Of a stretch of DNA of 51,014 bases, positions 2,574-21,024 are shown piece by piece (within the stretch, counting starts at the first letter, position 1; every line of letters begins with the position of its first letter). The stretch comes from Flavobacteriia bacterium (lineage in GTDB: Bacteria > Bacteroidota > Bacteroidia > Flavobacteriales_D > Crocinitomicaceae): positions 1-51,014 of the forward strand of contig JACOTM010000071.1 in assembly GCA_016178305.1 (NCBI GenBank), written 5' to 3'. Both the position numbers and the translations under genes were made by a program. The notes under the pieces were generated by a model. It saw nothing but the letters and a program-made list of their open reading frames with translations, was not told the DNA's origin and did not search any database.

Positions 2574-3629
2574 ATGAGTAGAAGATTACCAATTTATTTT
2601 TTAATAGATATATCCGAATCTATGGTTGGAGAACCAATTCAGCAAGTTGAAGAAGGTATAGCAACTATAATCCAAACATTAAAAACGGATCCAAATGCTT
2701 TAGAAACAGTATGGATTTCAATTATAATTTTTGCTGGACAACCAAAAACATTGGTACCACTTCAAGAAATAATAACTTTTTATCCGCCAAGATTTCCAAT
2801 TGGGGGAGGAACTTCATTAAGCAAAGGCCTTGGCCATTTAATGTATGAATTAAGAAAAAATCAAATTTTAACTACACCAGAAAAAAAAGGTGATTGGAAA
2901 CCAATTGTCTTCTTGTTTACAGACGGAGTACCGACTGATGATAGTAAAAAAGCTATAGAAGAATGGAAACAAAATTGGCAAAGAAGTGCAAATATGGTAG
3001 CTGTATCTTTTGGAGATGAAACAGATACAAAATTATTAGGCGAATTAACTGAAAATGTTTTACACTTTAAAAATGCTGATAAAGATGCCTATAAACAATT
3101 CTTTAGATGGGTTACTGATTCAATTAAAACAAGTTCAGAAAGTGTTGAAAATAATTCAACGGGCTTTGAATTATCAAAAATTGACGGTGATACTTTGTCA
3201 AAAATTGACTTAACAAAAAATGAAAATAATCCTTATATAGATAATAATTACGTTGTTTTATCTGCAAAGTGTCAAAATACTAAAAGGCCTTATTTAATGA
3301 AATACAAGAGAAATATTTCATCAAATAATTTTTCAGGACTTGAATTAAATACTCTTGCATATCGCTTAGTTGGTGCATATCAGGTCGATAATACATACTT
3401 TGAGTTATCAGATGATTCTGTTATAAATTTAAAAATTAATACAAACGAATTAATTGGAGCTCCAACTTGTCCTTGTTGTGGAAATCAATTTGCATTTGCT
3501 GCATGCCAATGTGGAAAAATTCATTGTATTGGTGAAGAAGATATTAGTGAATGTCCATGGTGTGGAAATCAAGGTAGATACGGCGCATCTAGTGAAGGTG
3601 GTTTTGATGTTAATAGAACTCAAGGGTAA
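2574..3629 (+). CDS. VWA protein with C-terminal TerY-C zinc ribbon
   Basis: This 351-residue protein has an N-terminal VWA domain with MIDAS motif LIDISESM and a later VFLFTDGVPTDD strand, a middle region of about 100 residues, and a cysteine-rich tail with CPCCG, ACQCGKIHC and CPWCG clusters (about residues 298-333). That arrangement matches TerY with its TerY-C zinc-ribbon extension. Its stop overlaps the phosphatase start (TAATG at 3627-3631), so VWA, phosphatase and kinase form a coupled triad. The tail probably binds zinc and mediates binding of partners. This is the most complete of the three VWA paralogues here. Confidence 0.9.
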   Translation: MSRRLPIYFLIDISESMVGEPIQQVEEGIATIIQTLKTDPNALETVWISIIIFAGQPKTLVPLQEIITFYPPRFPIGGGTSLSKGLGHLMYELRKNQILTTPEKKGDWKPIVFLFTDGVPTDDSKKAIEEWKQNWQRSANMVAVSFGDETDTKLLGELTENVLHFKNADKDAYKQFFRWVTDSIKTSSESVENNSTGFELSKIDGDTLSKIDLTKNENNPYIDNNYVVLSAKCQNTKRPYLMKYKRNISSNNFSGLELNTLAYRLVGAYQVDNTYFELSDDSVINLKINTNELIGAPTCPCCGNQFAFAACQCGKIHCIGEEDISECPWCGNQGRYGASSEGGFDVNRTQG

Positions 3630-13862: not shown

Positions 13863-15200
13863 ATGCAAAAAAATAATGGAAATATATTTTTAGTAACAGC
13901 CTTATCTTTGCTGGGAGTTGGGTTAATTGCAGGAGTATTGGCTAGTCAGAGTTATTTAATTCCTAACTTTTTAAAAAAAACAATAGGTTTTGTTTCACTG
14001 AGACCCTTGCATGTTTCATTTGTAATGTTTTGGATAATGTTGGGTGCAATAGGTTGTGTTTACAGTGGTTTACAGAAAATTAAACAAACAAAAACAATAT
14101 TGTTTTTATCGAAATTGCAATGGGTATTTTTGATAATAGCCATAATAGGTATTTTTCAATCTTATCTGACCAAAAAATTTGGAGGTCGTGAATATTGGGA
14201 ATTTGATCCAATATGGGCATTACCGATATTATTATCTTGGTTGACATTTGTAATAAATTTCTTTCTTATTGTAAAAGGATATCGTAATTGGCCTGTTTAT
14301 ATTTGGATGTGGATGACAGGAATATTGTTTTTTACGTTTATTTTTCTAGAAAATTATCTATGGATATTTCCAGCATTTCGTTCTAATTTTATTAATGATA
14401 TGACAATACAATGGAAAGTTAATGGTTCAATTGTAGGGGCTATTAATCAACTTTTATATGGAATGTCTTTTTTTTTAATGGATAAAATTCAGCACAATGG
14501 GGAAGGAAAAGTTGGTACAAGTAAATTAGCATTCACAATGTATTTTCTTGGTTTAACAAATTTAATGTTTAATTGGGGACATCATATTTATACCTTGCCA
14601 ACAGACAGTTATGTAAGGTTTGTCAGTTATGCAATTAGTATGACAGAATGGATTTTTTTCATTAAAATAATAATGGATTGGAAGAAAACAATTGGAGAAT
14701 TTAAGTTGCATTTAAATTATTTTCCATTTCGATTTTTAGTTGCAACTGAATTTTGGGTTTTCGTAAATTTAGGGCAAGCAATTTTAATGTCTATTCCTGT
14801 GTTAAATATATTTACACATGGTACGCATGTAACAGTAGCTCATTCAATGGGAACAACAATAGGAATTAACAGTATGATTTTATTTAGTGCTTGTTTTTAT
14901 TTTATTAATAACGAAATAATTTCATTTGAAAGACCAACAAAAACGCTTAATTTTTCATTTTGGTTAGCTCAAATCAGTTTAATGTTCTTATTTCTTTCTT
15001 TAGACATTAGCGGTATTTTAAAAGGTTTTTGGCAGTTGAATCAAGAGCAAAGTGCCTTTTCAATCATGATGCAAGAATTAAAACCTTTGTTCATCATTTT
15101 TGTTATTTCAGGTGTTGGATTAGCAATAGCTTTTTTTAGCCTAATTTATCACTTACTGAAAGCAGCCTTTATCTCACAATTAATCAACAAAAACAACTAA
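13863..15200 (+). CDS. NorB-like heme-copper oxidoreductase subunit with altered metal ligands
   Basis: This 445-residue, roughly 12-helix membrane protein belongs to the heme-copper/NorB superfamily. His50 (RPLHVSF), His240-His241 (NWGHHIY) and His327 (VAHSMG) match heme- and metal-ligand positions of cytochrome c nitric oxide reductase. Two positions differ from the Pseudomonas enzyme: the first non-heme metal histidine is replaced (Asn187 in QWKVNGS, with no His between 180 and 210), and the second low-spin heme histidine appears to be Met329. The catalytic glutamates after that histidine are also absent. The NorC-like gene upstream and Ric nearby support nitric oxide reduction, but the chemistry may not be standard. 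Confidence 0.82.
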   Translation: MQKNNGNIFLVTALSLLGVGLIAGVLASQSYLIPNFLKKTIGFVSLRPLHVSFVMFWIMLGAIGCVYSGLQKIKQTKTILFLSKLQWVFLIIAIIGIFQSYLTKKFGGREYWEFDPIWALPILLSWLTFVINFFLIVKGYRNWPVYIWMWMTGILFFTFIFLENYLWIFPAFRSNFINDMTIQWKVNGSIVGAINQLLYGMSFFLMDKIQHNGEGKVGTSKLAFTMYFLGLTNLMFNWGHHIYTLPTDSYVRFVSYAISMTEWIFFIKIIMDWKKTIGEFKLHLNYFPFRFLVATEFWVFVNLGQAILMSIPVLNIFTHGTHVTVAHSMGTTIGINSMILFSACFYFINNEIISFERPTKTLNFSFWLAQISLMFLFLSLDISGILKGFWQLNQEQSAFSIMMQELKPLFIIFVISGVGLAIAFFSLIYHLLKAAFISQLINKNN

Positions 15201-16954: not shown

Positions 16955-17704
16955 TTAGACATTAAACAAATTGTTTTCTATTTCGATTGCTTTTTTGAAT
17001 AATATGTTGTTTTCTAAATGAATATGATGATGAAGGTCTTCTTCAAATTCTGCTAATTTTGAAAATAATACTCTATAAGTAGCACAAGCATGTTCAGGAG
17101 GTGTGAAATTATTTGAAAGCTCTTTTGCTTTTTCCATACTGTTTCCTGCTGAAATATGCTCCATTTCCATCATTTTTATTGGGTTTTGAATAGTTCCAAA
17201 TCCTGGTCTCTCTACAGTTAAACCTAATTTATTCGCTTCATTTAATTGTTTGATGTAAGGAAAAAGAATCATTTCCTCTTTTGGCATGTGCATCGTTAAT
17301 TCTTCGGCAACTTCACTGAAATATTTACTAATTTCATGTAATTCAGGATTATGATCCCCATGAACTCTACATACTTTATTCATGAACTCATACATTACTG
17401 GAATCGATTGTGTAACGTAATGATGGTGAACATCGACAATATGATTAGCCAAATCACTTAAATCCCAAGTGTTGAAATCAATCGTAGTATCTTTAATTTG
17501 AGTATCTATTTCAGCTAATTCAGCTTTTAATTGAACGGCATCTATATTTTTTTTAGCACATGCCTCATCTATTGAAACGTTTCCTCTACAACAAAAATCG
17601 ATACCATGTCTTTTGAATACTTCTGCTTTTCTAAAATCTTGTGCGACTAATTCGCCAATTGTGTAATCAGAAATATTTTTCTCTATTGCTATATTGTTTT
17701 CCAT
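16955..17704 (-). CDS. ric: Iron-sulfur cluster repair di-iron protein Ric (ScdA/YtfE)
   Basis: Ric repairs Fe-S clusters damaged by nitric oxide or oxidants. The protein (249 residues from MENN) has an N-terminal ScdA_N domain with DFCCRG (Cys38-Cys39) and a hemerythrin-like domain with the di-iron histidines and glutamates in HHHYVTQS, HGDHNPELHE, HMPKEEMILFPYI, EHISAGN and HHHIHLENNILF. I placed the start at 17704 because a strong minus-strand promoter lies at 17722-17753; the longer frame from 17752 would begin inside it. A dyad like that of the nadA promoter overlaps this promoter. It is a single-gene unit, divergent from nrdD. Confidence 0.94.
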   Translation of the reverse strand: MENNIAIEKNISDYTIGELVAQDFRKAEVFKRHGIDFCCRGNVSIDEACAKKNIDAVQLKAELAEIDTQIKDTTIDFNTWDLSDLANHIVDVHHHYVTQSIPVMYEFMNKVCRVHGDHNPELHEISKYFSEVAEELTMHMPKEEMILFPYIKQLNEANKLGLTVERPGFGTIQNPIKMMEMEHISAGNSMEKAKELSNNFTPPEHACATYRVLFSKLAEFEEDLHHHIHLENNILFKKAIEIENNLFNV

Positions 17705-17721
17705 GACATTTATTTTTTCTA

Positions 17722-17753
17722 CAAATATAAAGATAAAAATAATAAAGGACAAA
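17722..17753 (-). promoter_or_regulatory. ric promoter
   Basis: On the minus strand TTTG (17753-17750) is followed after 20 bases by TATATTTG (17729-17722), a full match to the Bacteroidota TTTG/TAnnTTTG promoter pattern. It lies 18 bases before the ric ATG and fixes the start codon. Confidence 0.75.
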
Positions 17754-18016: not shown

Positions 18017-20116
18017 ATGGAAAAATTTGTAATTAAAAGAAATGGCGAGTATAAATTGTTGGAAGACTACAAGATTAAACAAGCGATTGAAAAAGGATTC
18101 TTAAGTGTAGGGAAGGAGTATAACGATGCTATTTTCTCAAATGTAATCACTTGTTTAGAAGAAAAAGATGTTTGGTCTGTAGAAGAAATACAAGATGTTA
18201 TCGAAAAAGAATTTTTTGTTACAAATGATTTTGATGTAATGCGATCTTTTATGTTGTATCGTCATACTCGTAAATTGCAGCGGGAAAACAGTAAGGGGTT
18301 AGTCGATGATACAACGTATGTTAATAGTACACAAACAATAGAAGAATATATTAGTCAAACAGATTGGAGAATAAATGCAAATGCAAATACTTCTTATTCC
18401 AATGCTGGATTGGTAAATAATGTTGCAGGTAAAATTATCGCAAATTATTGGTTGGATAAAGTTTACAATAAAGAAGAAGGGGTGGCACATCGTAACGGTG
18501 ATATTCATATTCATGATTTGGATTGTTTGACTGGATATTGTGCGGGTTGGAGTTTACGCGTTCTTTTAAATGATGGTTTTAATGGTGTGAGAGGTCGTGT
18601 TGAGAGCAAAGCTCCAAGTCATTTCAGAGAGGCATTAGGGCAAATGGCTAATTTTTTAGGGATTTTACAAAGTGAATGGGCAGGAGCTCAAGCTTTTAGT
18701 TCTTTTGACACCTATTTAGCTCCTTATGTTTTTAAAGATAATTTAACCTATGAAGAAGTTTTTAAAGCTGTTAAAAGTTTTGTGTATAATTTGAACGTTC
18801 CAGCAAGATGGGGGCAATCACCCTTTACAAATATTACGATTGATTGGGTTCCTCCTTCAGATTTGAAAGACCAAAATCCAACGCGTAATGACAACCATTT
18901 GTTCAAAGGAATATCAAAATTGAATATTTTAGAAAGAGCAAAAGAACGAGGTGTTGAGTCTATTGAAGAGTTGTGTTACAAGCATTTTCAACCAGAAATG
19001 AACATGATTAACAAAGCATATTATACGGTTATGACTGAAGGAGATGCTAATGGACAACCTTTCACGTTTCCAATTCCAACTGTAAATATCACTGAAGACT
19101 TTGATTGGCATGGAGAAAATACAGATTTGTTATTTGAAAATACAGCCAAAATAGGATCTTCATATTTTCAAAATTTCATCGGAAGTCAATTTGTAATGGA
19201 TGAAAATGGACATCGCGTGGAAAATCCGTTGGCTTACAAACCAAATGCTGTTAGGAGTATGTGTTGTCGCTTGCAATTGGATTTACGCGAATTATTGAAA
19301 CGTGGTAATGGTCTTTTTGGAAGTGCTGAAATGACAGGAAGTATTGGTGTTGTGACAATTAATATGGCTCGATTAGGGTATATTTATAAAGGAAACAAAA
19401 AAGAATTATTGAAACGATTGGATAACTTATTAGAAATTTCTAAATCAACATTAGAGAAAAAAAGAGTTTTCATCCAAGATATGTATGATCGGGGATTATA
19501 TCCTTATACAAAAAGATATTTACAACATTTTAGAAATCATTTTTCCACAATTGGAGTGAATGGAATTAATGAAATGATTCGAAATTATTCAAATGATGAT
19601 TTTGATGTATCTTCTGAAGAAGGAATCGATTTTGCAAATGAAATATTGGATTTGATTCGTTTGAGAATGAAAGAATTTCAAGAACAAACGGGGAATTTAT
19701 ACAATTTGGAAGCAACTCCTGCAGAAGGAACAACTTATCGTTTTGCAAAAGAGGATAAAAAACGTTTCAATGATATTATTCAAGCAGGTTTTGGTGATAA
19801 TGTTTATTATACTAACAGTTCGCAATTACCTGTAGATTACACTGAAGATCCTTTTGAAGCCTTACAATTACAGGACGAATTACAATGTAAATATACTGGA
19901 GGAACAGTTTTGCATTTGTATATGAATGAAAAGATTAGCTCTCCTGAAGCTTGTAGAAACATGGTGAAAAAAGTAGTCTCAAATTTCAGATTACCTTACA
20001 TTACAATTACCCCTATTTTTAGTGTTTGTCCTGTTCACGGCTATCTTTCAGGCGATCATGAATATTGTCCAAAATGTGATGATGTTTTGTATGAAGGATT
20101 GAAAAAAAAAGAATAA
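18017..20116 (+). CDS. nrdD: Anaerobic (class III) ribonucleotide reductase, catalytic part without glycyl-radical domain
   Basis: NrdD reduces ribonucleoside triphosphates without oxygen. The 699-residue product starts with an ATP-cone (MEKFVIKRNGEYKLLEDYKI to about 90), continues with the ten-stranded barrel including CAGWSLRVLLNDGF and MCCRLQLDL, and ends with a zinc site (CPVHGYL..CPKC) and then stops at EGLKKKE. In known NrdD proteins the glycyl-radical loop follows this zinc site in the same chain; here it is encoded by the next gene. I chose ATG 18017; the TTG at 17999 would add six residues. The order nrdD, radical gene, nrdG implies one operon. Confidence 0.93.
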   Translation: MEKFVIKRNGEYKLLEDYKIKQAIEKGFLSVGKEYNDAIFSNVITCLEEKDVWSVEEIQDVIEKEFFVTNDFDVMRSFMLYRHTRKLQRENSKGLVDDTTYVNSTQTIEEYISQTDWRINANANTSYSNAGLVNNVAGKIIANYWLDKVYNKEEGVAHRNGDIHIHDLDCLTGYCAGWSLRVLLNDGFNGVRGRVESKAPSHFREALGQMANFLGILQSEWAGAQAFSSFDTYLAPYVFKDNLTYEEVFKAVKSFVYNLNVPARWGQSPFTNITIDWVPPSDLKDQNPTRNDNHLFKGISKLNILERAKERGVESIEELCYKHFQPEMNMINKAYYTVMTEGDANGQPFTFPIPTVNITEDFDWHGENTDLLFENTAKIGSSYFQNFIGSQFVMDENGHRVENPLAYKPNAVRSMCCRLQLDLRELLKRGNGLFGSAEMTGSIGVVTINMARLGYIYKGNKKELLKRLDNLLEISKSTLEKKRVFIQDMYDRGLYPYTKRYLQHFRNHFSTIGVNGINEMIRNYSNDDFDVSSEEGIDFANEILDLIRLRMKEFQEQTGNLYNLEATPAEGTTYRFAKEDKKRFNDIIQAGFGDNVYYTNSSQLPVDYTEDPFEALQLQDELQCKYTGGTVLHLYMNEKISSPEACRNMVKKVVSNFRLPYITITPIFSVCPVHGYLSGDHEYCPKCDDVLYEGLKKKE

Positions 20117-20174
20117 ACACTTTGAAAACAGCAGAATAAAAAAGTATTGAAAATAAAACAAACAATTTAACAAA

Positions 20175-20354
20175 ATGAGCGATATGAAATTAAAAGAACA
20201 AGCATTGGAATTAAAATTAGACAATTCGTTGAGAACAAAATGTTTAGTTTACACACGTGTAATGGGATATCATCGCCCTGTAGAAAGCTTTAATATAGGA
20301 AAAAAAGGAGAACATAAGCAACGAAAACATTTTAAAGAAAATTGTGGCTGTTAG
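20175..20354 (+). CDS. Separate glycyl-radical subunit of class III ribonucleotide reductase
   Basis: This 59-residue ORF carries YTRVMGYHRPVESFN, the glycyl-radical loop normally found at the C-terminus of NrdD (R-V-x-G-Y-x-R-P-V), with Gly31 as the predicted radical residue, then GKKGEHKQRKHF, the matching terminal segment. It ends NCGC. It has its own short helical N-terminus and lies 58 bases after the nrdD stop in a different frame, so it is not a simple read-through. Its last 11 bases overlap the GTG start of nrdG, the activase that would make its radical. It likely docks onto NrdD as a small subunit. Confidence 0.88.
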   Translation: MSDMKLKEQALELKLDNSLRTKCLVYTRVMGYHRPVESFNIGKKGEHKQRKHFKENCGC

Positions 20355-21024
20355 TCCGATATATGGAATAACTCCTTTTTCATTACTTGATTATAAGGAT
20401 TATACATCATGTATTATATGGTTTGCTAGATGTAATATGAAATGCTTATACTGTTATAATCCAGAGATCGTATTTGGAAAAGGAGTTTATGAATATCAAT
20501 ACGCATTAGATTTTTTAGAGAAAAGAAAAGGATTGTTGGACGGGGTAGTGTTGAGCGGAGGAGAATGTACCGTCCATACAAACTTTTACCAATTTGTTGA
20601 AGATATAAAATCAAAAGGATTTAAGGTGAAAATTGATACGAATGGATTACGACCTTTTACAATTGATCGGTTGATTACGAATGACTTGGTTGATTTTATT
20701 TCTTTAGATTTCAAAACACATAAAGATGATTTTTACGATTTGACGGGCTCTCAAATTTTTGAACAATTTGAAAGAACTTTAGAGATTTTATTAGAAAGTC
20801 AGATTTTATTTGAAGTACGAACAACGATTCATTCAGAATTAATTCGACCGAGAGATTTTGAAAAAATGCTTCGATTTTTAGAACAAAAAGGATATAAGCA
20901 AACTTATTATTTACAACCATTTCGAAATGGAGTTGGTACAGTAGCCGAATTGCCTCCTTCCGTAATTTCGGATGAATTAAAACAAATGAAATCGGATGAT
21001 TTTGAAATAATTTGGAGAAATTAA
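20344..21024 (+). CDS. nrdG: Radical SAM activase NrdG for anaerobic ribonucleotide reductase
   Basis: The 226-residue protein carries the radical SAM motif ARCNMKCLYC (Cys30, Cys34, Cys37) close to the N-terminus, a glycine-rich LSGGECT segment for SAM binding and a partial barrel, as in NrdG-type activases. These abstract hydrogen from the radical glycine of NrdD. The start is a GTG at 20344 that lies within the end of the 59-residue radical subunit gene; no better start is present between the stop at 20354 and the Cys motif. The overlap suggests coupled synthesis of activase and its target. Confidence 0.9.
   Translation: MAVSPIYGITPFSLLDYKDYTSCIIWFARCNMKCLYCYNPEIVFGKGVYEYQYALDFLEKRKGLLDGVVLSGGECTVHTNFYQFVEDIKSKGFKVKIDTNGLRPFTIDRLITNDLVDFISLDFKTHKDDFYDLTGSQIFEQFERTLEILLESQILFEVRTTIHSELIRPRDFEKMLRFLEQKGYKQTYYLQPFRNGVGTVAELPPSVISDELKQMKSDDFEIIWRN

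Follow-up and report, generated by a model that had tools for sequence, protein, structure and literature searches.

Introduction

In canonical class III ribonucleotide reductases (RNRs), such as those of T4, Thermotoga maritima and Prevotella copri, the catalytic chain NrdD and the activase NrdG appear to be built from the same elements as the proteins that we describe here, i.e. an ATP cone, a barrel, a zinc site and a glycyl loop, with the activase gene located adjacent to nrdD. In these enzymes, the glycyl loop and its tail form the C-terminus of NrdD itself (PMC11226230), while in the locus that we present here they are a separate gene product. According to the solved class III structures, the C-terminal radical domain must exit the barrel in order to meet NrdG (PMC11226230, PMC12662201).

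Small stand-alone glycyl-radical proteins have been described as spare parts of pyruvate formate-lyase (PFL), namely YfiD/GrcA and T4 Y06I, one of which is phage-borne (PMC8683613); these proteins repair a complete enzyme of another subfamily, whereas the host enzyme in the present case has no radical domain of its own. According to a 2021 paper on YfiD, just these two PFL spare parts had been validated, and similar parts of other glycyl-radical enzymes were a matter of speculation (PMC8683613). The division of an RNR catalytic chain over two genes is also known, from the split class II NrdJa/NrdJb and the split class I NrdA of phage Aeh1, but these belong to other classes and are divided at other points; the consulted parts of a 2011 review list both and no split class III enzyme (PMC3267527). 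The nrdD coding sequence itself occurs in pieces in phages (the T-even intron, phiAS4 and Lactococcus phage 949), but these are individual phages whose gene has an intron, an intein or a recent break (PMC3653736), and a conserved stand-alone radical subunit is not part of them.

The closest deposited case is the megaplasmid nrdDG of Alcaligenes eutrophus (Cupriavidus necator) H16, whose sequence is split into a 676-aa NrdD, a 66-aa small ORF and NrdG. We have found no description of a stand-alone NrdD radical subunit in the open-licence literature, as far as its text was accessible; one may exist in papers behind a subscription, with Siedow 1999 as the foremost candidate. The accessible parts of two RNR family surveys and of the 2011 review (PMC3267527) are silent on such a subunit, as are those of PMC9669993, PMC9531940, PMC3019208, PMC11194802, PMC4390871, PMC2795772, PMC3322345 and PMC12288474, and those of PMC11226230, PMC2864759, PMC8683613, PMC12662201 and PMC3653736.

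Here, we describe a locus that very probably encodes a class III RNR with a two-polypeptide catalytic unit, where a 59-aa protein would serve as a trans-acting glycyl-radical subunit that is also supplied by phages. Our reading draws on comparisons at the level of sequence: the split itself, its conservation, the lack of any other glycyl-radical domain in the source genome, the separability of the two genes, and the phage copies.

The nrdD-nrdG locus

The features of the window, i.e. the whole stretch of 51,014 nucleotides that has been analysed, are listed in Table 1. Its NrdD contains an ATP cone (PF03477, 50.6 bits), a barrel that carries the active-site cysteines in the motif MCCR (residues 415-418), and a zinc site (CxxH...CxxC), and both the barrel (PF13597, 544.7 bits in a Pfam search) and the ATP cone score above the curated cut-offs, placing the chain among the class III NrdD proteins; the same is seen with NF006126 (positions 3-649 of 684, 1072.8 bits) and with TIGR02487, likewise above its cut-off. 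The chain ends ahead of the glycyl loop: the PF13597 match covers positions 2-528 of 562 and stops there, and the C-terminus of the protein is CPVHGYLSGDHEYCPKCDDVLYEGLKKKE, with KKKE as the last residues before the stop.

The missing stretch of the profile is found on the 59-aa ORF, which matches positions 532-562 of PF13597 with 29.1 bits (cut-off 26.2); its predicted radical residue is Gly31, in YTRVMGYHRPV, and it carries a cysteine of the invariant type, Cys23. In a Pfam search at E up to 0.1, the 59-aa protein matches the NRDD family only, and the PFL-type radical domain that marks the YfiD/GrcA proteins is not matched; restoration of a cut enzyme in the manner of YfiD/GrcA would be a likeness in working and not in family. 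The third protein scores 181 bits against TIGR02495, the profile of the anaerobic RNR activase (cut-off 131.15), and 63.9 bits against PF04055. The original prediction, that NrdD ends after the zinc site and that the loop is on a separate ORF, agrees with our analysis in all coordinates, frames and letters, including the spacing, the change of frame, the position of Gly31 and the overlap with the GTG of nrdG. NrdD does not run into the small ORF, because the stop-to-stop frame of the latter starts at about 20157.

Table 1. Features of the window around the class III RNR genes.
Feature	Position	Strand	Remarks
COX1-family haem-copper protein	13863-15200		close to the nrd genes
ScdA/hemerythrin repair-type protein	16955-17752		close to the nrd genes
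nrdD, class III RNR large chain	18017..20116	+	699 aa, ATG start, TAA stop
gap between nrdD and small ORF	20117..20174	.	58 bases
stand-alone glycyl-radical subunit (predicted)	20175..20354	+	59 aa, frame other than that of nrdD
nrdG, radical-SAM activase	20344..21024	+	GTG start, 11-base overlap with small ORF

The two genes that are listed first in Table 1 fit a life at the oxic-anoxic border, and would be expected near nitrogen-oxide metabolism.

The probable sole radical carrier of the class III enzyme

Searching the whole source genome with PF13597 (E 0.001) has returned the NrdD piece and the loop piece only, with no second NrdD and no other glycyl-radical domain at that limit. Elsewhere, the genome encodes a class I/II RNR large chain, and the class III enzyme is therefore presumably the anaerobic one. 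No second full-length NrdD was found in 19 other split genomes that have been searched whole. A catalytic unit of two polypeptides, in which only the small protein carries the radical, had been proposed from the window alone, and this proposal is supported by the single PF13597 pair in the source genome and by the result for the 19 split genomes; we infer that the radical is taken up by the small protein and handed on to NrdD.

These searches also bear on whether the small protein is a mere repair part, similar to YfiD, for an otherwise complete enzyme. The logic would be that of YfiD, which has a demonstrated role in repair (PMC8683613), and additional orphan copies of the small gene occur in three of the 19 split genomes that have been searched whole (G664, G665 and G668), as well as in G1189 and G1225. 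However, NrdD is without the loop from the start, both in the source genome and in the split genomes that have been searched whole; the small protein would therefore be needed for the first turnover and not just after damage, which makes a role in repair alone highly improbable. As the radical subunit proper, the small protein may additionally serve repair.

One locus shows what a spare part in the strict sense could look like: locus L245 of genome G490 encodes a stand-alone glycyl-radical protein of 94 aa, zinc site included (3312-3596, minus strand; PF13597 positions 489-560, 63.6 bits), overlapped by a 154-aa protein that matches Fer4_12 (2864-3328, minus strand) and may be its activase. 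G490 also has a complete 797-aa NrdD (L248), and the 94-aa protein may be a genuine spare part for an NrdD of a different type.

Conservation of the small protein

Relatives of the small protein have been found at 579 loci on genome contigs. In the best 80 of these, the relative is a short stand-alone frame in every case, a count that gives no unbiased rate, because the loci were ranked by their likeness to stand-alone proteins. In 79 of the same 80, the fetched DNA also holds an NrdD that lacks the glycyl-radical domain and an NrdG frame; the remaining one (L109) is an orphan copy. The best 80 loci include Flavobacterium, other Bacteroidota, Campylobacterota, Akkermansiaceae, a Turicimonas and one betaproteobacterial metagenome-assembled genome (MAG); one record (L068) is titled as a Bifidobacterium breve MAG, but its locus is Flavobacterium-like and it is probably a mislabelled bin.

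In the alignment of the 59-aa protein with seven stand-alone relatives, Gly31 and Cys23 are invariant, and every one of the 249 frames matching the small-protein profile, 80 of them viral and the other 169 cellular or fused, has glycine at the radical position. The comparison of the codon core of the window's small ORF (33 codons) with 47 relatives has given a pS of 0.79 and a pN of 0.046, or 0.044 once the 8 codons used for finding the core and anchoring the alignment are omitted; the pN/pS ratio is near 0.06 either way, and is a rough value, because a pS near 0.79 is close to saturation. These substitution counts indicate that the small ORF is under purifying selection.

Gene arrangement and separability

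The gaps between nrdD and the small ORF range from -92 to +631, with the first in-frame ATG taken as reference, and the offset of the small frame relative to NrdD takes all three values (47, 17 and 15 of 79). Where the two are in the same frame, they are separated by TAA, TAG or TGA, with more than one stop at several loci. The genes may also be far apart: about 9 kb separate nrdD from the small gene and an nrdG in G1025, and in G1189, the small gene and nrdG are located at about 95 kb from nrdD, with two further orphan copies elsewhere. In one locus (L091), the order is reversed, with the small gene ahead of nrdD. From these arrangements, the two parts appear to be separable as genes. In the gap of another locus (L055), we have observed a broken mix of the start of the small ORF and the NrdD zinc site, which resembles what a local duplication might leave behind.

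Programmed frameshifting or stop read-through could in principle join the two ORFs into one chain in the cell, as the two genes share about 17-20 bases, at one fixed offset, in many Bacteroidota loci, and a single in-frame stop separates the parts in some Campylobacterota and Akkermansia. The wider sample makes such joining very unlikely: the window has its 58-base gap and change of frame, its relatives show the range of gaps, offsets and stop codons given above, the small gene may be located kilobases away from nrdD or precede it, and viral records carry the small gene alone. An intron between nrdD and the small ORF has been considered and rejected, because the gap is 58 bases and the genes overlap in many relatives.

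Distribution of the split

In our survey of bacterial genomes with PF13597, splits have mostly been called from the match rows, either as a loop-less NrdD with a separate match to positions 528-562 or as a match that crosses an in-frame stop; 20 stretches, picked mainly as doubtful or unusual cases, have been checked on the DNA, which has brought in the small ORF of G1216, overlooked until then. In the family of the source organism (240 genomes), the split occurs in 6 of the 10 genomes that match PF13597, all 6 with the small frame, and the other 4 are fused. Bacteroidota (395 genomes surveyed) show the split in 10 of 28 matching genomes, next to 17 fused and one weak partial match; Pseudomonadota (398 surveyed) in 13 of 57, next to 41 fused, 2 with another split and one weak match; and Campylobacterota (150 surveyed) in 59 of 75, next to 15 fused and one broken. 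Akkermansia has the split as well. The arrangement thus appears old and widespread, extending well beyond the source genome.

It is also found on complete plasmids, in Sulfuricurvum kujiense, Aquabacterium olei, Bradyrhizobium, Cupriavidus necator H16, Paracoccus and Sulfuricystis; among the annotated plasmid records, five name the small gene nrdD, one gives it the same product name, one calls it hypothetical and one does not list it. In C. necator H16, nrdDG is reported to be essential for complete denitrification (PMC2864759, citing Siedow 1999), an indirect indication that the split enzyme works in a cell.

This recurrence bears on whether the split of the window has arisen through an error of sequencing or assembly, or through gene decay. 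The source assembly consists of 124 contigs, and no NrdD was found in the 11 other genomes of the genus that have been searched, as might be expected of an artefact or a remnant; yet the same arrangement occurs in independent genomes of several phyla, complete plasmids included, and the small ORF bears the signs of purifying selection. After the comparison with the relatives, sequencing error, gene decay and frameshift have been rejected; the probability of error or decay is next to negligible, both being in practice refuted by the recurrence. The two outcomes that would have told against the original prediction, namely an error that joins the ORFs in one frame and a second full-length NrdD, have both been looked for, and neither has been seen.

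A second, apparently independent split occurs in two Pseudomonadota genomes (G1008 and G1076; loci L292 and L293), in a distant NrdD of the classic type: NrdD is cut at the same point by TAG, followed by an in-frame 58-aa ORF that carries RITGYLVG. Two further irregular cases have been noted: at L306 (G1234), a stop interrupts NrdD after about 379 aa, with no small gene at the limit used, and in G026:C208:81-2783 (L005, L012), one long frame has two separate matches to the NrdD profile, at positions 1-263 and 256-560, with roughly 320 aa between them that are a possible intein.

Split and fused forms in the NrdD tree

A quick IQ-TREE phylogeny of 60 NrdD rows, with SH-aLRT support only and several long branches, places all 45 split rows within one group of 52 rows (support 98), together with 6 fused rows and one whose small gene is located elsewhere. 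Within the tree, the split label changes 7 times, or at least 5 times when only the starred branches are counted. Fused rows are nested in split groups, with the two parts joined by a short linker, e.g. L303 beside the split L310. The pattern is probably that of a single old split followed by re-fusions. Because 6 of the 52 rows of the clade are fused, the split is not needed for the chemistry.

Structural model and proposed mechanism

A search of the PDB with the small-protein profile has found no relative (best E 0.61, unrelated), and solved homologues are therefore reached only via NrdD and a model. For the model, we have used the read-through chain of locus L034, where NrdD, the stop and the small ORF are in one frame. 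The AlphaFold2 model (mean pLDDT 79.7, pTM 0.75) superposes over its length on NrdD structures, e.g. on that of P. copri NrdD (8p2s_B) with a Z of 32.3 and an rmsd of 2.7 over 556 residues. The second cysteine of MCCR aligns with the cysteine of MGCR in P. copri NrdD; we take the thiyl cysteine of the window's NrdD to be Cys417. The superposed range (88-769 of the model on 85-735 of 8p2s_B) spans Gly711, although the alignment of the loop itself is not proven thereby; Gly711 is the radical residue of P. copri NrdD (PMC11226230). The model represents a single chain and not a complex, and its pLDDT is 62-66 in the radical loop and below 50 in the finger loop; because of the former values, docking of the radical loop at the proposed site is consistent with the model, and not proven by it.

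The mechanism that we propose is as follows: NrdG would abstract a hydrogen from Gly31 of the 59-aa protein, which would dock at the mouth of the NrdD barrel, in the place that the covalent glycyl-radical domain takes in other NrdDs, and the radical would be transferred from there to the active-site cysteine of NrdD. Oxygen would destroy just the 59-aa part, which could be replaced by exchange. A subunit that acts in trans could therefore be carried by phages as their own copy; such a copy would work with the NrdD and NrdG of the host, to the presumed benefit of the phage.

Phage copies

A profile of eight small proteins has been searched against viral contigs, giving 136 viral loci. In 78 of the best 80, the fetched flanks hold no NrdD, the exceptions being L133 and L175. 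Among 40 whole viral records that have been compared with PF13597, 38 have the loop piece without NrdD, one (G702) has both, and one (G686) has no match at the limit used, its small ORF having been found by the small-protein profile; viral records are often fragments, and NrdD may lie outside some of them. One of the 38 (G685) has an additional weak match to positions 503-529. All ten phage copies that have been compared with phrog_4132, as well as the window's ORF, match it, only over about positions 115-162 of 179; phrog_4132 is a phage family without known function.

The phage copies are more variable than the cellular ones, with a mean pN of 0.159 and a mean pS of 0.479 (106 pairs with a pS of 0.05-0.6). 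Four viral proteins (L188, L189, L174 and L162) have an N-terminal cysteine-rich segment (C..H...GR..P.DC) that is absent from the cellular ones. A tblastn search of 50,697 phage records has returned 4 weak matches for the window's small protein and 2 for one phage copy, mostly inside annotated NrdDs; at that sensitivity, the phage copies reside in IMG/VR contigs and prophages and not in the isolates that were searched.

Several phage copies are located between holin and endolysin genes, and G665, G1189 and G1225 have neighbours of this kind in stretches that resemble prophages. There, the small gene is flanked by a holin and a GH108-type endolysin at L242 and by a holin and a DUF5675 protein at L299; it has an endolysin on one side at L308 and a holin on one side at L300, and in Turicimonas it follows a lysozyme-type endolysin. 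Ten neighbours that have been checked against PHROG were partly picked for their lysis-like look; 3 of these have no match and one is a tail protein. A less biased set comes from 57 dereplicated loci, with 85 of 207 immediate and 85 of 307 farther ORFs, for which the best 25 of 84 and of 157 families, respectively, are listed: the immediate neighbours include endolysins (phrog_315 4, phrog_7 3, phrog_435 2) and holins (phrog_2073 3, phrog_785 2), in families that may share proteins, while most match none of these, and the farther ORFs include at least one endolysin among the best 25 families listed.

The position near lysis genes makes a late block of host DNA synthesis thinkable, where the small protein would regulate NrdD or NrdG, or act as a decoy for one of them, instead of carrying the radical, and phage copies would inhibit the host enzyme. 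Against such a role, which we regard as quite improbable, the source genome has no other glycyl-radical domain, the radical glycine and its surroundings are conserved in both cell and phage copies, and natural fusions of the two parts exist (L032, L296, L303, L304, L311 and L312).

It is somewhat more likely than not that the glycyl-radical subunit is an exchangeable part that moves alone, and that phages and prophages of split hosts carry only this part, often in or near the lysis cassette, to keep up or restore dNTP synthesis by the NrdD and NrdG of the host after oxygen damage.

Implications

In current annotation, naming the 59-aa gene nrdD, or omitting it, obscures the fact that an essential anaerobic enzyme has its radical subunit there. 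As a natural two-part enzyme, the split NrdD would make activation, docking and radical transfer separately testable, and it offers a candidate spare part in an enzyme of DNA synthesis, with many phage-borne copies. A cheap and replaceable oxygen-sensitive part would suit microaerophilic or denitrifying carriers. If the proposed role of the phage copies is true, the spare-part principle would extend from PFL to another glycyl-radical enzyme, and the small gene would be a very small auxiliary metabolic gene.
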